Below, piece by piece: positions 3,154-41,452 of a stretch of 55,694 bases of DNA. Origin of the DNA: Flavobacteriales bacterium (GTDB lineage Bacteria; Bacteroidota; Bacteroidia; Flavobacteriales_D; Sanyastnellaceae); assembly GCA_016780385.1 (NCBI GenBank), contig JADHLY010000007.1, positions 1 to 55,694 of the forward strand, read 5' to 3'. Under the pieces are notes generated by a model, which made no database searches, was not told where the DNA came from, and was given only the letters and a program-made list of their open reading frames with translations. The first letter of the stretch is position 1; the number at the start of each line of letters is the position of its first letter. Both the position numbers and the translations under genes were made by a program.

Positions 3154-4233
3154 TCAGTTCAGGAGCATGACGGGCCCCTGCTGGTTTCGCGAAGACTTCG
3201 GCGTGCTCCTCGGCCATTGGAGAGACCAGATGTAGACTCCGGGCTCAAGCACCTGACCATTTTGGTCCTTGCCATCCCATTGGGGCCGGCCCGGATCGAG
3301 CTCAGCAATCAGGGTGCCCCACCGCGAGAAAATCTGAAAGGAAACCGGCAATACGTCGCCTACTTTGGGCTCAAACAGGTCGTTCAAACCATCTCCATTG
3401 GGCGAAAAAGCATTGGGCACAAACATGCCAAACCCCGCATCCTCAGCGTCGTCTTGTATCGAGGGTGCCTTGACCTCATCTTCTGGCATCGGACTCGGGT
3501 CACCAGGCGGTGGAACCGGCTCGAGCTCAAACGCGTCGAAGTAGTAATACGCCATGGTCGGGTTCGTCCCGGAACTGACCTCAGCTTCGAGGGCATCATC
3601 TGGGAGGAAGACCCCGATCGTCAGGAAGCGGTGGGGTGCATCCGCGAGAAAAGTGAGCGTGACTTGGCTCCACCCCTCTTCATATCGGGCATAGGGAAAT
3701 GAAAATACAGGGGGGAGGTCCAAAACGCCATCGCCGAATTGGGTGGGTTGCTCCGGACTGAGGGCGATGCCCACTCCATTCACTGACAATCCAGACAAGG
3801 ATGTGGGAATCCGCTCTCCGTTGGTGAAATGAAAACTCAGCCGATAATGCTGTCCGACGACAAGTGGCGCTTCAAATTCCTGAACCAGGTACTCCCGAGA
3901 CAAAGGTTGGCCAGCGCCATTCCTTTTGATGACGGCCAACCCTGCCACACCCCCACCTTCGTATGGGTGCACCATGGCCACAGGGGTTTCCGGCAAATCG
4001 CCGCCCAATGTCCCATTGATGTGAAAGAAATCGGGAGAGGAAAGGCCACTCAGCGCATTGTTCCAACCTGGGAGCAAGTGCCACATGCCTGGCGCAGACG
4101 GTAGGTTGCTCGACACTTCAAACCCAGGATTCACCAGCTGGGCATGCACCTCTGATTGAACCCCACCCCACAACAACAGTGACCAAGCCAAACCGCAAAT
4201 GCAGCCTTTGATGTATTGTTGCGGTCCCTTCAT
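3154..4233 (-). CDS. secreted protein with gliding motility-associated (CHU_C) C-terminal domain
   Basis: 359 residues with an N-terminal signal peptide (hydrophobic stretch LAWSLLLWGG, cleavage near VHA-QLVNPGFE). Residues from about 33 to 245 form a beta-rich extracellular module starting NPGFEVSS, resembling carbohydrate-binding or choice-of-anchor domains. The C terminus carries FVPNAFSPNGDGLNDLFEP followed by FQIFSRWGTLI and WDGKDQNGQVLEPGVYIW, the type B sorting domain used by the type IX secretion system. This predicts export to the cell surface; the ligand is unknown. The start ATG follows TAATTTG by exactly five bases, suggesting a very short or absent leader. Confidence 0.88.
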   Translation of the reverse strand: MKGPQQYIKGCICGLAWSLLLWGGVQSEVHAQLVNPGFEVSSNLPSAPGMWHLLPGWNNALSGLSSPDFFHINGTLGGDLPETPVAMVHPYEGGGVAGLAVIKRNGAGQPLSREYLVQEFEAPLVVGQHYRLSFHFTNGERIPTSLSGLSVNGVGIALSPEQPTQFGDGVLDLPPVFSFPYARYEEGWSQVTLTFLADAPHRFLTIGVFLPDDALEAEVSSGTNPTMAYYYFDAFELEPVPPPGDPSPMPEDEVKAPSIQDDAEDAGFGMFVPNAFSPNGDGLNDLFEPKVGDVLPVSFQIFSRWGTLIAELDPGRPQWDGKDQNGQVLEPGVYIWSLQWPRSTPKSSRNQQGPVMLLN

Positions 4234-4238
4234 GTTTG

Positions 4239-4245
4239 CAAATTA
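4239..4245 (-). promoter_or_regulatory. -7-like element (TAATTTG) five bases before a start codon
   Basis: TAATTTG followed by CAAAC and the ATG of the CHU_C gene. It is one base shorter than TAnnTTTG. The same arrangement (TAATTTG, five bases, ATG) occurs in front of the M23 peptidase gene, which supports a functional promoter with transcription starting at or near the start codon. Confidence 0.35.
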
Positions 4246-4270
4246 ACCAATTGCGTCCACTATAAACGAG

Positions 4271-4296
4271 AAGGAGCCCCGCGTTCGGAGCTCCTT
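4271..4296 (-). terminator. hairpin, possible terminator of the sigma factor operon
   Basis: Seven-base perfect arms AAGGAGC/GCTCCTT with three further pairs inside after one mismatch. It lies about 130 bases downstream of the outer-membrane-like gene. The run after the hairpin on the minus strand (CTCGTTTATA) is only weakly U-rich, so termination is uncertain. Confidence 0.4.
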
Positions 4297-4427
4297 CACC
4301 TTAACCAAAACAACTTGAACCAAATCTTCGCTGTGTCTGCAGGTCGCTTGAGCCTGCATAGAATAGACGCATCCGAGGCCAAGAATGTTGTTTGAGGAGT
4401 TCCCAAAAGGTGTCAACAGGTGTGAAC

Positions 4428-5321
4428 TCACCGGTTTCCCCAGCGTTTCTGCAACCCAACAGATGCCGCCCATCGGGGTGCACTGCCCCCAGACCAGTCG
4501 CCGATCAAGAGGCATTCCCAGCCCCTTCTGCCCACAGGCACTGCCAATCCGCCGTGCAGGCCCACCGCCCAATACTGGGTGGATTCCCAATCGTTGCGGT
4601 CTGTCCCCAACACGTTTGCCGGTGAAGGCAATGCGCCCTCGGGTACGCGGTTGATTTGTTGTTCGGTGCGGGCTGAGCGCACCCATTGTCCCTTTGCGCC
4701 CAACCACCAACGTGGACCTGGACGCCGTGACCTTCTGTGAGCGTCTGACGTACCGCCCAAGCTCAAGGCAAAACCCAGTGACTGCACCGGGATTGCTGAA
4801 ACCGGCATCGGGAGGGTGTCCAACTCGATGCCCAAATCGGGATACGTAAACCTGATGCGCTGCTCCAAACCGCCCATCCCATCTGCGCCCAAGCCGTAGA
4901 TGCTGTCGTTTAATGCGCTCGCCGCGTAGGCCTGTTCCGTCCAACGCTTGGCCTCAAAGCCCAAGCGCACGAAGGGCCCCTGACCCCGCCACTCCATGGC
5001 CACAGACAAGGCCCCGCAGGCATCAGAGCCACGGCCCATAAAACGGCCGAGACCAAGGCCCACAGGACTCGCCAACTGCCCGCCCACGCCGCCGGTGAAC
5101 CCCACCAGGACATCGGGGAATTCGCCCCGCCACGTGCGTGTTTTGCTCTTTGATTTGGAAGGTGCATCCACATCGGGAACGCCAACTTCCTCTTTGCTCA
5201 ACGCCAAGTTGAGCTCCAATGGCACCCCGTCGATGGTGATGGTGTCTTGCGACAAGGACAACTGAGGGGCATTCCAGCCCAAATTGACCACCGCCAGCAA
5301 CAAAAACTCAACCCCACTCAT
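4428..5321 (-). CDS. uncharacterised outer-membrane-like protein of sigma factor operon
   Basis: 297 residues, not recognised by family. The first 20 residues (MSGVEFLLLAVVNLGWNA) are hydrophobic but lack a basic n-region, so the signal peptide is atypical. Alternating hydrophobic strands with aromatic ends (VRLGFEAKRW, WWLGAKGQWVRSA, YWAVGLHGGLAVPVG, CLLIGDWSGG) and a terminal strand ASVGLQKRWGNR suggest a beta-barrel. An in-frame stop directly precedes the ATG, fixing the start. It follows an ECF sigma factor and a membrane protein on the same strand; a sigma factor / anti-sigma / beta-barrel set is common in Bacteroidota, so a role in envelope stress signalling is an inference. Confidence 0.6.
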   Translation of the reverse strand: MSGVEFLLLAVVNLGWNAPQLSLSQDTITIDGVPLELNLALSKEEVGVPDVDAPSKSKSKTRTWRGEFPDVLVGFTGGVGGQLASPVGLGLGRFMGRGSDACGALSVAMEWRGQGPFVRLGFEAKRWTEQAYAASALNDSIYGLGADGMGGLEQRIRFTYPDLGIELDTLPMPVSAIPVQSLGFALSLGGTSDAHRRSRRPGPRWWLGAKGQWVRSARTEQQINRVPEGALPSPANVLGTDRNDWESTQYWAVGLHGGLAVPVGRRGWECLLIGDWSGGSAPRWAASVGLQKRWGNR

Positions 5322-5403
5322 TCACGCGAAGTTGGGAAAGAAGGTGGACAGGACCCACCCTGCCCTCTCCGTGATTGTGAATCGCAGCGGCTTGATCACC
5401 GCA

Positions 5404-6102
5404 TCAGTGTTGCCCACCGCCTGACGGCAGGGTGAGCGGCAGGGTCAATCGGGGCTTCGGATCGGCAGGAACGGCCTCTTCTTCGGACTTCTCCGCACCA
5501 GGCTGAGCGCCCGATGCAGCCGGTACGACCACAGGGGCGGTAACTGCTGGAGGCTCGGTGGACGTAGACGCTGCATCCGACGTGGGACTTGGCCGTCCAA
5601 TCTGAACCTCTTCTACAGCAACAGCTTCAATGTTTGGGCGTCCTTGCGTCAAAGCAGGCTCCTCGGAAGCTGTGGCAGCCACTGGTGCTTCGCGCACCAC
5701 ATTTGGCGCAGCCTCGGAGGTGGCGACCTCAGGTGCCTCCACAATTTCAGGTGTCGGCATGGCGGCCTCTTCCAATGTCACCTCGTTTTCTGTGACGGGC
5801 AAATTGGAAGGTGCAGCATCAGAAACCTCCAATACTTCGCGCAACTCCATGGTTTCCGAGGCATCAAGCCCGTCGTAGGCGGAAGCTGCTTCCTCTCCAC
5901 TGTTGCGCATCAAGGCCGCTCCCGTTGCCAGCAATAGCGCGGCCCCACCTGCCATCCCCCAGCGTTTCCACGCAGGGAAAGGTTGGGCAAACAGGCCGTC
6001 GCCAGGAGGTGGCGCGGCCACCTCTTTCTCTGCCAACAGGGCGTGACAACGCGCGTCGAAATCGGCGTCTGTCTGGGTCATATCGAAGTCGTTTTCCTTC
6101 AT
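5404..6102 (-). CDS. single-pass membrane protein, possible anti-sigma factor
   Basis: 232 residues. Order: an acidic cytoplasmic N terminus of about 45 residues (FDARCHALLAEKEVAAPPPG), one membrane segment WGMAGGAALLLATGAALM near residues 50-68, then a long low-complexity periplasmic tail rich in Glu, Ala, Val, Pro and Thr. The ATG overlaps the sigma factor stop by four bases (ATGA), indicating coupled translation. Position and topology fit an anti-sigma factor, but no zinc-binding anti-sigma motif (HxxxCxxC) is visible, so the assignment rests on context. Confidence 0.6.
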   Translation of the reverse strand: MKENDFDMTQTDADFDARCHALLAEKEVAAPPPGDGLFAQPFPAWKRWGMAGGAALLLATGAALMRNSGEEAASAYDGLDASETMELREVLEVSDAAPSNLPVTENEVTLEEAAMPTPEIVEAPEVATSEAAPNVVREAPVAATASEEPALTQGRPNIEAVAVEEVQIGRPSPTSDAASTSTEPPAVTAPVVVPAASGAQPGAEKSEEEAVPADPKPRLTLPLTLPSGGGQH

Positions 6103-6695
6103 GATGCGAAACCTGCGTTTCCGGAGGCGTTGCTTGTTGTAGACTGCGCTCGGGCCGAAAGGGTTGCAAGCACACGCTGTAAATATTTTCTCGCCCGGCT
6201 CAATTGGCTCTTGGAGGTGTTCACGTCGATGCTCAATTGCTCGGCAATTTCATGGTGCTTGTACCCTTCAATGACATACATACAGAAGACGGTGCGATAG
6301 CCCAAGGGCAACTGAGCGATGGCCAACTCAAGCTCATCGGCGGTGAATTCTGGATCCGATTGGTTTTCCAGGTCCCTGGGGGTCGCCGGGATTTCCGCAA
6401 TGTCTTGGTGGTGCTGGTGCTTGAGGTGCTTGCGGTAGTGGGTGATGGCCGTATTGACCACAATCCGCCGCATCCAACCCTCGAACGAGAAATCCTGTCG
6501 GTAGCTCTTGATGTGCTTGAAGATCTTGACGAAGCTGTCTTGTAGGACATCCTCAGCATCCTCCCTGCTGTTGGTATGACGCAGGGCTGTGGCAAAGAGT
6601 TGGCCACTGAAACGGGCATACATCTGGCGTTGCGCACCGGCTTTTTGTGCCTTGCACTCCTCGATGAGCAGTTTCAACTCTTCTGATGACGCCAT
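6099..6695 (-). CDS. ECF-type RNA polymerase sigma-70 factor
   Basis: 198 residues with region 2 at about 25-90 (FATALRHTNSREDAEDVLQD, then FSFEGWMRRIVVNTAITHYR) and region 4 at about 120-180 (LAIAQLPLGYRTVFCMYVIE, then HHEIAEQLSIDVNTSKSQLS), connected by a short linker as in ECF factors. It should direct RNA polymerase to a dedicated promoter set. First gene of a three-gene same-strand set with the membrane protein and the outer-membrane-like protein; stop/start overlap with the former. Confidence 0.9.
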   Translation of the reverse strand: MASSEELKLLIEECKAQKAGAQRQMYARFSGQLFATALRHTNSREDAEDVLQDSFVKIFKHIKSYRQDFSFEGWMRRIVVNTAITHYRKHLKHQHHQDIAEIPATPRDLENQSDPEFTADELELAIAQLPLGYRTVFCMYVIEGYKHHEIAEQLSIDVNTSKSQLSRARKYLQRVLATLSARAQSTTSNASGNAGFAS

Positions 6696-36567: not shown

Positions 36568-36588
36568 GCTGGCCATCAGACGGCCAGC
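36568..36588. terminator. inverted repeat at convergent gene ends
   Basis: GCTGGCC/GGCCAGC, seven-base perfect arms with a seven-base spacer, placed over the end of the oxidase gene and just after the small membrane protein gene. No T-run follows in either direction, so efficiency is doubtful. Confidence 0.35.
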
Positions 36589-37718
36589 CGCTTGCGCTCA
36601 CCGCGCAAAGCTTTCCGAGACATGGAGAACCGCTTGAGGTCCACTTCAGGCGACTGGCCCAAGGCCAATTGTGCCAAGATCCGGCCGATCAACGGGGCAA
36701 ACTTGAAACCATGCCCGCTGAACCCCGCTCCGATGACAAGGCCTTCTGGCGTGCGGTCCAGGATGAAATCCCGGTCGGCGGTCCCACTGTAGAAACACAC
36801 ATACCGCCGGACCACTTCGGCATCGCCCAATTCAGGCAAATGCTGAGCAAGAAAGGCCCTTGCTCCTTGCTCGAACCCGGCCGAAACACGGCGGTCATCT
36901 CCATCGGGATGCCCTTCAACGCCGGGGTGGTGGTTGGCCACTTTGATCCGGCCGTCACGGGCGGTGGGGATGGCATAAAAACCACTTTCCATGTGGCTGA
37001 ATACCGGAAGGCGTTCAAGTCGGTCTCCCAAGGCTGTGGCATCGAAATAGACCAGCTCCTGTCGGGTCACTTCCATGGCGACATCGGCCCATCGGCGCGT
37101 CCAAGCGCCGGCCGTCAATACCACCGCATCATAGCGGTCCTCACCTTGTTGGTCGGTGACACTTTGCGGCCCCACCTCCAATGCCTCTCCGCGAAACCGC
37201 ACGCCCTTGGAAGTGAGCCATGCCTGCAGCCCCTGAAGGATGACCAAGGGTTCCAGTACGCCTCCCAATCGGTCCACAGTGGCGGCCTCCGCCCTCATGC
37301 CCGGCCATTCGGCGGCCACGGCCCCCTTGGATAGCCGGTCCGCCGGCAACCCCATTTGACGCAGGGTGCGCCAGCTTTCCAAAGCATGTCGATCTCCCGG
37401 CTCCTCCAGCAGCAACTTGCCCGTCGAATGGAGCAACGGCCGGCCCAACTTTTGCTCCCAAGCCATCCAAAGGTTCTTGCTGCGCACGGCCATCGCGATC
37501 GTCTCACGGTCCTCTCCGTAGTGCACCCGGAAGCTCCGTCCCGTATCGACAGAAGCCCCGGGACCTTCGCCCAGCACGTGCGGGTTGTACAAGGTCACCC
37601 TCGCTCCCTCTTCCAATAAATGAGCCGCGGTCATGGCGCCCATGATGCCACCGCCGACCACCGCTACGTGAGGCTCTCGGGCCGTCAGCCCTTTCCATTG
37701 AGGTGCAGTTCTCGTCAT
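36576..37718 (-). CDS. FAD-dependent oxidase, monomeric sarcosine oxidase / SolA-like
   Basis: 380 residues. Dinucleotide fold VAVVGGGIMGAMTAAHLLEE at about residues 19-38; GASVDTGRSFRVHYGE; LVLTAGAWTRR-like segment (VVLTAGAWTRRW); and RRYVCFYSGTADRDFILDRT near 305-324, which aligns with the covalent-flavin Cys segment of monomeric sarcosine oxidase (Cys308 here), then GFSGHGFKFAPLIGRILAQL. The family oxidises secondary amino acids such as sarcosine, N-methyltryptophan or pipecolate with release of hydrogen peroxide; the substrate here is unknown. ATG 37718 overlaps the ATP-grasp stop by four bases, so the two are translated together under the poly-Cys leader. Confidence 0.85.
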   Translation of the reverse strand: MTRTAPQWKGLTAREPHVAVVGGGIMGAMTAAHLLEEGARVTLYNPHVLGEGPGASVDTGRSFRVHYGEDRETIAMAVRSKNLWMAWEQKLGRPLLHSTGKLLLEEPGDRHALESWRTLRQMGLPADRLSKGAVAAEWPGMRAEAATVDRLGGVLEPLVILQGLQAWLTSKGVRFRGEALEVGPQSVTDQQGEDRYDAVVLTAGAWTRRWADVAMEVTRQELVYFDATALGDRLERLPVFSHMESGFYAIPTARDGRIKVANHHPGVEGHPDGDDRRVSAGFEQGARAFLAQHLPELGDAEVVRRYVCFYSGTADRDFILDRTPEGLVIGAGFSGHGFKFAPLIGRILAQLALGQSPEVDLKRFSMSRKALRGERKRLAV

Positions 37719-38722
37719 GACCACGTGGTATTGCGGCCAACCTGAGCGGCCTCAGATGCCTTCACAGCCGCCAGCTCTTGACCTAAAAATTCAGCAATGG
37801 CGCCCATTCCCGTCAACGGCACTCCACTTTTCTTTTCGGCCTTGGCATTGTAGTTCGTGTTGATGTTGACATCGTAAAACCGCAGCCTTCCTTCGGCATC
37901 AGGTGCAGCCTCCATGGCCGCCACTTCCATGCCGGAGGCCTTCAAGAACCGCAAGCACCGATCGAGCTCGGCAGGCCGATGGTCGGGCACAATTTCAAAC
38001 TTGGCCCTGCCATCTGCCGGGCAGTATACATTCCCTACTTGGCAGGCATCTGATGGGCACAAATCAAAGCCTCCACCTGCGTCAATGCTCACCGTGTAGA
38101 GGTGACGCCCGCCCACAAACTCCAAGCGCAGCACCCTACCGTCTGCTGGCTTAACATACTCCTGTAGGACCACTGTCCCATCCAAGGTGTACTCATCAAA
38201 AGAGGCCAAGACCTCCTCGAGTTCGGCGGCGTTTCGAATCAAGCGCACCCCTGTCCCCTTTCCACCCCGGTTGGGCTTGAGGATAAATGCATCCTGCCAA
38301 TACGTCGCCGCCTTGCGCAAGGCCCCCGCCCCTGTCGCTGCCGTGGTCCTCGGCGTCATCAAGCCCGCGGCATGAAGGGCAATGGACTGCTCCACTTTGC
38401 TCACCTCGAGCCCAGTGGCCTGTCGGTTGTTGACCACACGGCGACCATGGGCTTCGAGCCAGGCCATCAATCCTCTTGTGGCCTCCCAGGCGTAGCGGTG
38501 ATCTCGGGTATGGGAGCTCGCGCTCATCCGGTTGTAGTACACGCCTTCCGGAGGAGGTGTTCCGATGTCCAATGCAAGGTCATCGATGAACCACTCCGTA
38601 TGGGGCAGTCCCCGCTCAGCCAAGGCAGCGCGCAGTGGCGCTACCCACGTGTCGTTTTCGTGGATAATGTGGATGACAGGAGCAGACTGGTGGTCAGTAT
38701 TGAGTTCAAGTGGAGAAAACAT
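37715..38722 (-). CDS. RimK/glutathione-synthase-like ATP-grasp ligase
   Basis: 335 residues. ATP-grasp features: GVYYNRMSASSHTRDHRYAW and VVNNRQATGLEVSKVEQSIA in the N-terminal half, the nucleotide loop AFILKPNRGGKGTGVRLI near residue 150, TVVLQEYVKPADGRVLRLEF, and the metal-binding FYDVNINTNYNAKAEKKSG near 285. Such enzymes join an amino acid or peptide through an acyl-phosphate. The N-terminal pre-ATP-grasp part differs from RimK proper and the substrate is unknown. It is the first gene of a two-gene operon with a sarcosine-oxidase-like enzyme. A terminator ends only 8 bases before its ATG and a cysteine-rich mini-ORF lies further upstream, so expression is probably controlled by attenuation. 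Confidence 0.85.
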   Translation of the reverse strand: MFSPLELNTDHQSAPVIHIIHENDTWVAPLRAALAERGLPHTEWFIDDLALDIGTPPPEGVYYNRMSASSHTRDHRYAWEATRGLMAWLEAHGRRVVNNRQATGLEVSKVEQSIALHAAGLMTPRTTAATGAGALRKAATYWQDAFILKPNRGGKGTGVRLIRNAAELEEVLASFDEYTLDGTVVLQEYVKPADGRVLRLEFVGGRHLYTVSIDAGGGFDLCPSDACQVGNVYCPADGRAKFEIVPDHRPAELDRCLRFLKASGMEVAAMEAAPDAEGRLRFYDVNINTNYNAKAEKKSGVPLTGMGAIAEFLGQELAAVKASEAAQVGRNTTWS

Positions 38723-38730
38723 AGGGGCAT

Positions 38731-38754
38731 AAAAAAGCCCGGCGAAGGCCGGGC
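38731..38754 (-). terminator. intrinsic terminator in the leader of the ATP-grasp gene
   Basis: GCCCGGC, loop CTTC, GCCGGGC, then TTTTTT on the minus strand: a compact seven-pair GC stem followed by six Ts. It lies between the poly-Cys mini-ORF and the ATP-grasp ATG, so it must be bypassed for expression of the operon unless a promoter lies inside the next eight bases, which is not possible. Reads as an attenuator terminator. Confidence 0.85.
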
Positions 38755-38785
38755 GGGTTGAGTCAATGAGAAATGAGAATGTCTA

Positions 38786-38866
38786 TCAGTGCATTCTCGT
38801 GCATGACGGCAACCAACCCGGCGGGGCTGGACAACAACAACAAGGACAGTTGAGCATGCCGTTCAT
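38786..38866 (-). CDS. 26-residue cysteine-rich leader peptide or small precursor peptide
   Basis: ATG at 38866, stop TGA at 38788-38786. The start is MNGMLN, followed by CPCCCCPAPPGWLPSC and four more residues. Five of six consecutive codons from residue 7 are TGT. Cys codons are rare in bacterial proteins, so five in six by chance is improbable. It is followed by alternative RNA pairings and an intrinsic terminator before an ATP-grasp gene, which suggests a leader peptide sensing Cys-tRNA. A precursor of a modified peptide, with the adjacent ATP-grasp and flavoenzyme as tailoring enzymes, is a competing reading. Confidence 0.6.
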   Translation of the reverse strand: MNGMLNCPCCCCPAPPGWLPSCTRMH

Positions 38867-38880
38867 AGCGTCTTCAAGAT

Positions 38881-38903
38881 AGTATAATAATTGTAATTAT
38901 ACT
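38881..38903. promoter_or_regulatory. AT-rich dyad upstream of the cysteine-rich leader
   Basis: AGTATAAT and ATTATACT form a perfect eight-base inverted repeat with a seven-base spacer, 15 bases before the mini-ORF and 13 bases after the priA stop. It sits in a strongly AT-rich island within GC-rich DNA. It may be an operator, part of the leader promoter (TATCTTG lies just downstream) or a weak priA terminator. Confidence 0.35.
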
Positions 38904-38915
38904 AATCCTATTGAT

Positions 38916-41363
38916 TTAATATGGATCTACGTCTATTATGACCCGCACTGGTCGATATTGCTTGACCGTCCTCATGGCCGCCAAATCCTCCAGCATCGCC
39001 GCCTTGAATTCGGACGGGTCCACAGCGCGTTCCACTTTGAGCAAGATGTGCCGTTGGTACAAATCGTTGACGCGCGCAATGCCCGGCTCTTCTGGACCGA
39101 CCACACGCCCACCAAAACGACTGCGCAAACGGCCAGCCAAAGCGGCTGCAGCCTCCCGCGTCAACTGCGGATCTCGGTGGCGCAGCACCAATCGGATCAA
39201 GCGCACCACAGGCGGGTATGCAAACGAGTGCCGCTCTTGAAGTTCAGCAGTGGCCATGGCTTTGGCGTCATGCTGGGCCACATGCTGGAACACCCAATGT
39301 TCCGGATCGAAGGTCTGAATGAGGACCTGACCGCGCTCCCCCCTTCTTCCAGCCCGGCCTGCCACCTGTGTCAACAGCTGAAAAGTGCGCTCCAACGCCC
39401 TGAAGTCGGGATAGTGCAGCATGTTGTCGGCCTGCAGGATGCCCACAAGCCCCACGTGCTCAAAGTCCAGCCCCTTGGTCACCATCTGGGTGCCCACCAA
39501 TACCTGAATCTCTCCCCGCTCAAAGGCTTGAATGATGCGCTCATGGCCCGTTCTGCTGCGGGTGGTATCCAAATCCATGCGCTGCACGGTGACCCCCGGA
39601 AGCAGGGTGCGTACTTCCTCTTCAATGCGCTCGGTCCCCAACCCTTTGGCCTCCACCTCTTCGCTGCCACAACGGGGACAGGTGACGGGTTCTGCCTGTC
39701 GGTAGCCACAGTAATGACAATGGAGGTCCTTGAGGTATTTGTGATAGGTCAAACTCACATCACACCGCTCGCAGTCTGGCACCCAACCGCAAGTCCGACA
39801 TTGATACACCGGCGCAAATCCCCTGCGGTTCTGAAAGAGAATGGCCTGCTTTCCTGCATCCAATGTTGTCCGAAGGGCCTCCATCAACTGACGGCTGAAA
39901 TGGCCTTCCATGGCGCGCTGCTTCCGGGCTTTGCGCAAGTCGATCAGCCCCACCTCAGGGAGCGACGTGCCCCCAAAGCGCTCGCTGAGTTCGACATGTC
40001 CTGCCCTACCGGCTTCTACGGCCCAGCGCGCCTCCAAGGAGGGCGTCGCCGACCCCAGTACCACGGCGGCACCATGCAGGTGTCCGAGCATCGCCGCGGC
40101 ATCCCGCGCCTGATAACGCGGAGCGGGATCCTGCTGCTTGTAACTGGCATCGTGCTCCTCATCGACCACGATAAGGCCGAGGTCATTGAAGGGCAGGAAA
40201 ATCGCGCTGCGGGCCCCCACCATCAATCGCCCCTGCTTTTCGCGGGTGGACACCCTGCGGTAAGTCGCCGTGCGTTCCCGGGGACTAAAGCGACTGTGGT
40301 ACACCTCGAGCCGGTCACCGAAAAAGCGCCTCAGCCTGACGATCAGCTGTGTGGTCAATGCAATCTCCGGAACGAGAAACAAGGCGTCCCGGCCCGATGC
40401 CAGCACCTCGTGAATCAAGTGGGTATAGACCTCCGTCTTGCCCGACCCCGTCACCCCTTCCAACAGCACGAGGGGCGTCCTGTGAAAAGCCTCCCTGACT
40501 TCAGACACGGCGCCTTCTTGGGCTGCGCTGAGCTCCGCTAAGGGCTCGACCTCCACATCGCGCTCCAATTGCCAGGGATCTTGCTTAAACAAGAACACCA
40601 GCCCCTTTTCTGTGAGCCGCTTGAACAGTGGAACCGTCACCCCTTCTCGTTGGGTCAACGCCTTCATGGCGACCCCTTTTCTGGCGTCTGGGTGGTCGAG
40701 CAACGCCATCATGGCCCGCGACTGGGAAGGTGCCTTTGCATCCAATGCGTCCAAGGCACCGGACAACCACCGTTCGTCGGCAATGGCCTGTTCGGACAGC
40801 CTCACCATGGATATGGTCTTGCGGCGCGGCGCGGCCTTCATTTCTTCGAGAGAAAGCAGCCAGCCTCGTTCCACCAATCGGTGAATCACCGGCGCGGGAT
40901 TGACCACCCCCAGCAGTTCCCCCACCGCTTTTAATGAGAGGCCACCACGCAGTCGCAGCGCTTCGACCACTTGAAACTCCCGATCATTCAGGGCATCCTC
41001 ATCGAGTTCCTCCACGTCCGGAGACAATTCCAATTTTGTCTCACTCGCCAACCTCATGCCTGAAGGCAATGCCGCCAATGCCACTTCACCTGGTCCACAG
41101 CAATAATGTGCGGACATCCAATCCCAAAACTTGAGCGTGGGTTCGGAGAGCATCGGCTCAGCATCCAGCAACGAGAGGTAGGGTTCTGTGACGTATTTAG
41201 GCCGCTCATGGTGCACCCGTCTTACCACTGCGGTGTGGAGTCGCTTCCCCCGCAATGGCACAACGATGCGGCTCCCTTCGCGCACCGCTCCACTGTCCCC
41301 TTCAGGCACAGCGTAAGTCAGGAGCCCCGGAAGGGCGAGCGGAAGAATGACGTCCACATACAT
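38916..41363 (-). CDS. priA: primosomal replication restart helicase PriA
   Basis: 815 residues. N-terminal DNA-binding domain from MYVDVILPLALPGLLTYAVP; helicase motif I LLEGVTGSGKTEVYTHLI, motif II LIVVDEEHDASYKQQDPAPR, motif III VLGSATPSLEARW; zinc region CRTCGWVPDCERCDVSL and CHYCGYRQAEPVTCPRCG; motif V QVLVGTQMVTKGLDFEHVGL and motif VI LLTQVAGRAGRRGERGQVLI. It reloads the replisome at collapsed forks. ATG 41363 starts at the conserved N terminus, so the 24 extra upstream codons are not used. Divergent from the peroxiredoxin gene. Confidence 0.96.
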   Translation of the reverse strand: MYVDVILPLALPGLLTYAVPEGDSGAVREGSRIVVPLRGKRLHTAVVRRVHHERPKYVTEPYLSLLDAEPMLSEPTLKFWDWMSAHYCCGPGEVALAALPSGMRLASETKLELSPDVEELDEDALNDREFQVVEALRLRGGLSLKAVGELLGVVNPAPVIHRLVERGWLLSLEEMKAAPRRKTISMVRLSEQAIADERWLSGALDALDAKAPSQSRAMMALLDHPDARKGVAMKALTQREGVTVPLFKRLTEKGLVFLFKQDPWQLERDVEVEPLAELSAAQEGAVSEVREAFHRTPLVLLEGVTGSGKTEVYTHLIHEVLASGRDALFLVPEIALTTQLIVRLRRFFGDRLEVYHSRFSPRERTATYRRVSTREKQGRLMVGARSAIFLPFNDLGLIVVDEEHDASYKQQDPAPRYQARDAAAMLGHLHGAAVVLGSATPSLEARWAVEAGRAGHVELSERFGGTSLPEVGLIDLRKARKQRAMEGHFSRQLMEALRTTLDAGKQAILFQNRRGFAPVYQCRTCGWVPDCERCDVSLTYHKYLKDLHCHYCGYRQAEPVTCPRCGSEEVEAKGLGTERIEEEVRTLLPGVTVQRMDLDTTRSRTGHERIIQAFERGEIQVLVGTQMVTKGLDFEHVGLVGILQADNMLHYPDFRALERTFQLLTQVAGRAGRRGERGQVLIQTFDPEHWVFQHVAQHDAKAMATAELQERHSFAYPPVVRLIRLVLRHRDPQLTREAAAALAGRLRSRFGGRVVGPEEPGIARVNDLYQRHILLKVERAVDPSEFKAAMLEDLAAMRTVKQYRPVRVIIDVDPY

Positions 41364-41452
41364 CACGAACAGCGAAAGTACCCGAAGCGGACAGATCCCC
41401 GCCAACTTGTGCACACGCTTGAACAGCATCGACACATTTTGGTTTCAATTGC

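Follow-up and report, generated by a model that had tools for sequence, protein, structure and literature searches.

The leader region ahead of an ATP-grasp ligase gene in this Flavobacteriales DNA very probably encodes a transcription attenuator in which the translating ribosome monitors the supply of charged cysteine tRNA. The anatomy of the leader, its conservation, the synonymous mixing of its cysteine codons, the pairing of each leader with its own partner strand and the sharing of the device with a CysM-type gene support this reading. The region lies on the minus strand of the window (the whole 55,694-nucleotide stretch of DNA that was analyzed), and the features discussed below are collected in Table 1.

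The leader open reading frame (ORF) sits on the same strand as the upstream gene priA, whose end lies 49 bases upstream of the leader ATG. It encodes MNGMLNCPCCCCPAPPG..., and five of the six codons from 7 to 12 are TGT. Direct reading confirmed this description of a 26-codon minus-strand frame, first given in a first-pass annotation of the DNA, and likewise placed the pairing segments of that annotation exactly: CCAGCCC (segment 1) at 38830–38824, GGGTTGG (segment 2) at 38819–38813 and CAACCCG at 38760–38754. The terminator comprises seven G-C pairs (38754–38737) and a run of six T residues to 38731, and is separated, as annotated, by 8 bases from the ATG of the ATP-grasp gene (38722). The best antiterminator in the window, GCCGGGU:GCCCGGC + GGUUG:CAACC + GUCA:UGAC, is longer than the 2:3 pairing originally proposed and so occupies the entire 5′ arm of the terminator. 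No Rfam 15 family reaches its gathering score in the window between 36000 and 42000, nor was any found on the six of 14 ATP-grasp loci, window included, that were scanned.

Table 1. Coordinates of the leader, its pairing strands and neighboring genes, and of riboswitch-associated leaders in family f20
Feature	Coordinates	Strand	Basis
ATP-grasp ligase (RimK/LysX-like), 335 aa, predicted first regulated gene	37715..38722	-	TIGR00768 4.6e-15, below cut-off; best fold LysX/ArgX
FAD-dependent oxidoreductase (DAO, sarcosine/N-methyltryptophan oxidase-like)	36576..37724	-	PF01266 7.7e-49
Leader ORF, 26 codons, MNGMLNCPCCCCPAPPGWLPSCTRMH*	38786..38866	-	read in sequence; Cys-run uORF kept in 14/14 leaders
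Putative regulatory codons 7-12: TGT CCT TGT TGT TGT TGT	38831..38848	-	direct reading; relatives mix TGT/TGC
-7-type promoter box TATCTTGA, 7 nt upstream of uORF ATG	38874..38881	-	read in sequence; TAnnTT in 14/14 leaders
Antiterminator 5′ strand (GCCGGGTTGGTTGCCGTCA), within leader ORF	38804..38822	-	duplex -26.3 kcal/mol, 0/500 shuffles
Antiterminator 3′ strand (TGACTCAACCCGCCCGGC), takes in terminator 5′ arm	38748..38765	-	duplex and swap test
Segment 1; might form a protector hairpin with 38813-38819 (weak support)	38824..38830	-	69.5% of cells paired, covariation not above shuffles
Intrinsic terminator GCCCGGC-CTTC-GCCGGGC-TTTTTT	38731..38754	-	paired in 99% of cells (14 leaders)
priA, upstream gene	38916-41435	-	leader ORF sits between priA and ATP-grasp gene
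SAM riboswitch and poly-Cys uORF before metY-like, NhaC-like and TonB-receptor-like genes (f20)	L235:2327-2584, L241:1768-2021, L247:2018-2265, L236:882-1091, L237:3049-3242, L240:1598-1809, L244:759-961		

Downstream of the terminator, the FAD oxidoreductase gene overlaps the ATP-grasp stop codon by 10 bases. The operon of ATP-grasp and flavoenzyme genes named in the first-pass annotation is thus present in the window, but its second member is not a constant neighbor and is absent from more distant ATP-grasp loci. The window ATP-grasp protein has no Pfam match at 0.001 and matches RimK/LysX models, in each case below their cut-offs; its predicted model (pLDDT 84) has LysX and ArgX as nearest folds, and the enzyme is predicted to have a LysX/ArgX/RimK-like fold. 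To our knowledge, no part in cysteine metabolism has been established for either enzyme of the operon, which we count against the attenuator reading.

A run of this kind is rare in its surroundings. Cysteine accounts for 36 of 3758 codons in ten genes of the window, a frequency at which five or six cysteines in six codons would arise by chance with a probability of ∼5e-10 per position. Short ATG- or GTG-started frames with at least three cysteines in six codons number 18 across the whole window; the leader alone has five, one other has four, and the leader is the sole one of the 18 followed by a terminator at or below −9 kcal/mol. In the genome as a whole (a 1.86 Mb assembly, 84% complete), TGYx4 occurs at 25 places, some of them overlapping, and one of these is an ATG-started short frame with a T5 run within 250 nt after it, the T5 run being the terminator criterion applied here. 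The 158-nt window leader folds better than its shuffles (z −2.9, with two of 200 as good).

The ATP-grasp gene is found in 17 of the 114 genomes of the window's family: 14 in genus g1, to which the window belongs (17 g1 genomes), one in g19 and two in g21. The leader set comprises 14 sequences, 13 from g1, window included, and one from g19; the remaining g1 genome (L013/L028), in which the terminator is present, was left out because its contig ends just upstream. Every one of the 14 leaders has an upstream ORF (uORF) with at least four cysteines in six codons together with a terminator, a combination seen on the reverse strand in 0/14, so the conservation across homologs that the first-pass annotation had put up for checking was borne out. 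Shuffled g1/g19 leaders gave a uORF with at least four cysteines in six codons in 0/140 cases, at least three in 5/140, and at least three together with a terminator in 1/140. The two g21 loci have neither a Cys uORF (0/2) nor a terminator. The cysteine cluster starts 4 to 6 codons past the uORF start, and one leader (L011/L026) has an apparent GTG start and reads CCSCC. Both TGT and TGC are present in 8/14 clusters ahead of the ATP-grasp gene and in 23/29 of the CysM leaders described below, as expected when the amino acid, rather than the RNA sequence, is under selection. In two genomes of the same genus (L007/L034 and L008/L023) the distance from the end of the leader ORF to the ATP-grasp start is ∼170–250 nt, compared with the usual ∼65, and the protein match of the ATP-grasp gene does not start until residue 8 or 17.

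A TAnnTT box, which we take to be the Bacteroidota −7 promoter element, lies upstream of the uORF start in 14/14 leaders, at 7 nt in eight and at 4 nt in six. With the box this close to the start codon, transcription probably begins at the ATG, and the ORF is probably leaderless. The same test detects a −7-type box in 15/29 CysM leaders, 2/3 Saprospiraceae/L035 leaders, 0/11 f47 leaders and 7/30 f20 leaders.

The competing RNA structures were assessed in several ways. The window antiterminator duplex, at −26.3 kcal/mol, is matched by 0/500 shuffles, and in 10 of the 14 leaders no more than 5/500 shuffles reach the native value; the duplex is weak in the other four (L021, L022, L034 and L030), where 20 to 99 of 500 do so. 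In the alignment of the 14 leaders, 99% of cells in the terminator columns are paired, with little variation, and 68% of cells in the antiterminator columns, compared with 24–44% when these are slid by 1–3 columns. Covariation in the antiterminator is modest, its score being reached by 20/500 shuffles, and the number of pairs with two-sided change falls within the shuffle range; we attribute this to the G-C cores, which barely vary. The 2:3 antiterminator of the first-pass annotation appears to be real but longer than drawn, taking the whole terminator 5′ arm, with modest column support. The hairpin between segments 1 and 2, proposed as a protector, is formable in the aligned leaders and shows no covariation beyond that of shuffles, so this part of the proposal found no backing in the alignment.

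The pairing was also examined by an alignment-free swap test. Each ORF region was paired with its own terminator arm or with those of the others over 20000 permutations, using the 52 leaders that passed the filter for uORF plus terminator (14 in the ATP-grasp group, 28 ahead of CysM and 8 in family f47). Permutations matched the native pairing in 0/20000 cases for all 52 leaders, 1/20000 for the ATP-grasp group and 9/20000 for CysM, counts whose significance is inflated by the shared ancestry of the leaders. The eight f47 leaders gave no signal (10255/20000).

We also folded the 14 leaders with a ribosome, assumed to have a 15-nt footprint, placed at successive positions. With the ribosome on the Cys codons, the antiterminator is the minimum-energy state at one or more stall positions in 10/14 leaders; in L021, L022, L034 and L030 it is favored at none of the stall positions. 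Moving the ribosome to the last Cys codon makes the terminator the minimum-energy state in 14/14, so the model favors stalls early in the run. The terminator also wins in 14/14 with the ribosome at the stop codon, an outcome nearly built into the test.

The same device precedes a cysteine synthase-type gene. A covariance model was built from the leaders and run against 399 genomes of the order. It gave 14 strong matches (E 5.7e-22 or better), which are the 14 known leaders; the next best match scored 1.4e-7. Twelve weak matches were inspected (L231, L233, L217, L218, L227, L229, L220, L215, L216, L224, L232 and L234), and five of them, L215, L216, L224, L232 and L234, are Cys leaders ahead of CysM-type genes. 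Two weak matches, L231 from the window's own genome and L233, were rejected as Cys leaders, being the ends of coding genes followed by a terminator; L217, L218, L227 and L229 were rejected because the inspected stretch contains no Cys run.

A protein search for CysM found it in 33/114 genomes of the family at E 1e-60 or better, and one of the CysM-type genes matches TIGR01136 (cysKM) at 3e-72, below the cut-off. We fetched 30 loci (L248–L277), spanning many genera of the window's family, and counted the 29 whose upstream sequence reached 100 nt or more. Within 1.1 kb upstream, 29/29 have a uORF in which four or more of six codons are Cys, against 0/29 on the reverse strand and 3/290 shuffles; this stricter threshold was adopted because three in six is reached too often by shuffles (44/290 for these long upstream regions). 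A terminator accompanies the uORF in 27/29. In the two leaders failing the terminator test, L251 and L276, a hairpin is present but its T tract is interrupted. Five of the uORFs lie far upstream, at 785–1016 nt. In the two of these five that were read, L215 and L224, the Cys leader and the CysM-type gene are separated by a gene whose translation reads as peroxiredoxin-type.

A second, CBS-like cysKM gene served for comparison: among five loci counted of eight full-length ones, from five genomes of the family (L280, L284 and L285 were excluded), 0/5 have a uORF with at least four cysteines in six codons and two have three. The window's own assembly, 84% complete, has no cysKM match. Occurrence of the device before the CysM-type gene in 29/29 supports cysteine as the signal and, with the preference of each uORF for its own terminator (1/20000), upholds the architecture of ribosome-mediated cysteine attenuation claimed for the window in the first-pass annotation.

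Related leaders extend into other Bacteroidota. In two Saprospiraceae metagenome-assembled genomes (MAGs) and one unclassified bacterium (L035), a Cys-run uORF precedes the ATP-grasp gene in 3/3, with a terminator in 2/3; the locus lacking one by our criterion, L031, shows a hairpin ending in a T3 tail, and for this small set the reverse strand also yields a Cys uORF in 1/3. In L035, an unclassified MAG, the pair of Cys uORF and ATP-grasp gene has as its neighbor, on the opposite strand, a gene for an EgtD-type histidine methyltransferase (∼3821–6392). At 16 distant ATP-grasp loci, mostly from Alphaproteobacteria and with three from Bacilli, a Cys uORF was found in 0/16. In family f47, 9/15 loci have at least three cysteines in six codons and 8/15 have both uORF and terminator. 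One f47 locus (L119:2512-5516) also carries, 2.5–5.5 kb upstream of the ATP-grasp gene, a cluster of CysM (TIGR01138), JAB-domain, ThiS-like (assigned by eye) and MoeB/MoeZ-like genes.

In family f20 the ATP-grasp protein is ∼34% identical to that of Saprospiraceae. At least three cysteines in six codons occur within 600 nt in 29/30 ATP-grasp loci and within 450 nt in 27/30, with the run mostly ending at the stop codon or a few codons before it. A terminator satisfies our criterion in 1/30, so we do not extend the transcription-attenuation mechanism to this family. Places with TGYx4 followed by TRR were numerous in eight f20 genomes; 30 such loci and 13 further stretches (L235–L247) were fetched, and those were kept, by eye, that opened with ATG, had their Cys run at the stop codon and preceded a plausible gene. 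Poly-Cys uORFs in f20 also precede metY (three loci), an NhaC-like transporter gene (three loci) and a TonB-type receptor gene (one locus); metX lies next to metY in two of the three metY loci, and the third ends too early. The names metY, metX, NhaC-like and TonB-type come from reading translations rather than from a family search.

Many of the f20 leaders also carry a SAM riboswitch. Rfam family RF00162 was detected in 20 of the 21 ATP-grasp loci scanned (of 30) and in 7/7 of the other f20 loci, those seven having been preselected for a poly-Cys run. The distance from the SAM aptamer to the start codon of the Cys uORF is 6–12 nt in 27/27, as a raw count, the uORFs having at least three cysteines in six codons, and at least four in 22.

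The gene after the ATP-grasp gene encodes an SfnG/SsuD-like flavin monooxygenase in 30/30 f20 loci and in 11/16 f47 loci; the best model for the two proteins scanned is TIGR04021, below its cut-off. Loci with an ATP-grasp gene followed by such an LLM flavin monooxygenase gene include L124:7473-9509 and L122:7486-9514, from two distant families. The recurrence of this pairing in distant families suggests a joint organosulfur chemistry.

From the window and its relatives we infer translation of the leader ORF, a ribosome stall, readthrough, the direction of regulation and the function of the operon, in the following scheme. Transcription would start at the leader ATG or a few bases from it, and a ribosome following the polymerase would translate the 26 codons of the leaderless ORF. 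With Cys-tRNA plentiful, the ribosome would pass the TGT run and reach the stop codon, the terminator would fold and transcription would end before the ATP-grasp gene. With Cys-tRNA short, the ribosome would stall on the TGT run and leave the sequence after it (GCCGGGTTGG...) free to pair with the 5′ arm of the terminator together with the stretch preceding that arm, permitting readthrough into the ATP-grasp/FAD-oxidase operon. That operon would then form part of a response to cysteine or sulfur starvation.

The sequence of events could be similar with a different trigger. Within the exit tunnel, a nascent poly-Cys chain might undergo arrest in response to redox conditions, a metal or a thiol compound, and so drive a cysteine-linked attenuator independently of Cys-tRNA shortage. 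Such a chain could be sensitive to redox state or metals, and the peroxiredoxin-type gene found after the leader in two CysM loci would suit such an input. A main target is, however, a cysteine synthase-type gene, and the variation in run length and spacing (CCC, CCSCC, CCCxCC, CCCCCCC) is easier to reconcile with codon counting than with a defined arrest motif. We regard nascent-peptide arrest as unlikely.

The preservation of Cys residues through synonymous codons would equally be expected of a functional Cys-rich peptide, for instance one binding metals or thiols, with the terminator just ending its transcript and the downstream enzymes independent of it. Against this, the peptide outside the Cys run differs widely among lineages, complementarity between uORF and terminator is maintained in the window's family, and Cys runs precede several different genes, which together make a functional peptide very improbable. 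An ordinary end-of-gene terminator for priA joined to a chance ORF, a reading to which the short same-strand distance from priA and the upstream position of priA in 12/13 relatives lend some color, is hardly credible given that a conserved TAnnTT box and a Cys uORF separate the end of priA from the terminator, that the device is present at the L012/L027 locus with no priA match, and that the CysM leaders are located elsewhere in genomes.

Read as a Cys-tRNA attenuator, the leader resembles the classical trp, his, leu and thr attenuators in its ORF rich in the regulated codon, its competing antiterminator and its intrinsic terminator, and differs from them in that the codon is cysteine, the ORF is probably leaderless and the first regulated gene is not a known biosynthetic one. 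At the time of PMC3766115, according to the portion of that paper available, Rfam held attenuators for His, Leu, Thr and Trp only. Predicted Cys leaders of Actinobacteria are described, in the accessible part of PMC1262725, as short ORFs with Cys runs near the stop codon ahead of cysteine genes, with no conserved terminator; a mycobacterial example (Canestrari 2020) is cited in the available text of PMC13236596 as translation attenuation, its ORF being leaderless by the title. The window leader differs from these, with its run at codons 7–12 of 26 and a strong intrinsic terminator; the f20 leaders, most of which have the run close to or at the stop codon and of which 1/30 has a terminator by our test, resemble them more.

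A closer parallel is the uORFC-8-2 motif of Rhodobacterales cysS, for which the accessible part of PMC8632094 gives Cys codons in a uORF, a terminator and predicted Cys-tRNA attenuation. That motif has two tandem Cys codons, usually at positions 14–15, inside the first stem, and is reported there only before Rhodobacterales cysS. The ATP-grasp and CysM leaders differ in having 4–6 Cys codons (codons 7–12 in the window), other genes and another phylum. The statement in the first-pass annotation that Cys leaders are mainly Actinobacterial thus holds in that such leaders are predicted there, without terminators (PMC1262725), and needs amending for the published Rhodobacterales uORF and terminator (PMC8632094), as far as the available parts of both papers go. 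Within Bacteroidota, the accessible text on Flavobacterium psychrophilum describes leader-peptide attenuation candidates before amino-acid biosynthesis operons and names no cysteine case (PMC9723704), and that on Bacteroides thetaiotaomicron describes short ORFs reminiscent of leader peptides (PMC7366714). A limited search of the open literature recognized no Bacteroidota cysteine leader. Ribosome-mediated amino-acid attenuation is already known; within the bounds of that search, what is new is a cysteine version with an unusual regulon in Bacteroidota.

The attenuator probably belongs to a sulfur regulon. With somewhat less than firm confidence, we favor a broader picture in which Bacteroidota possess a multi-gene cysteine attenuation regulon, taking in cysteine synthase, metY/metX, transporters and a family of ATP-grasp ligases linked with organosulfur-type oxygenases, with a two-input SAM/cysteine switch in one lineage and the ATP-grasp protein as a new sulfur-acquisition enzyme. 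The leader would give Bacteroidota a directly testable cysteine-sensing mechanism, placed ahead of a cysteine-making gene and, probably, of genes for organic-sulfur scavenging. For the ATP-grasp family, it is the regulation, rather than the sequence, that suggests a physiological role, in cysteine or sulfur shortage. In those relatives where a SAM riboswitch is paired with a poly-Cys uORF, one leader may read two sulfur amino acid signals.
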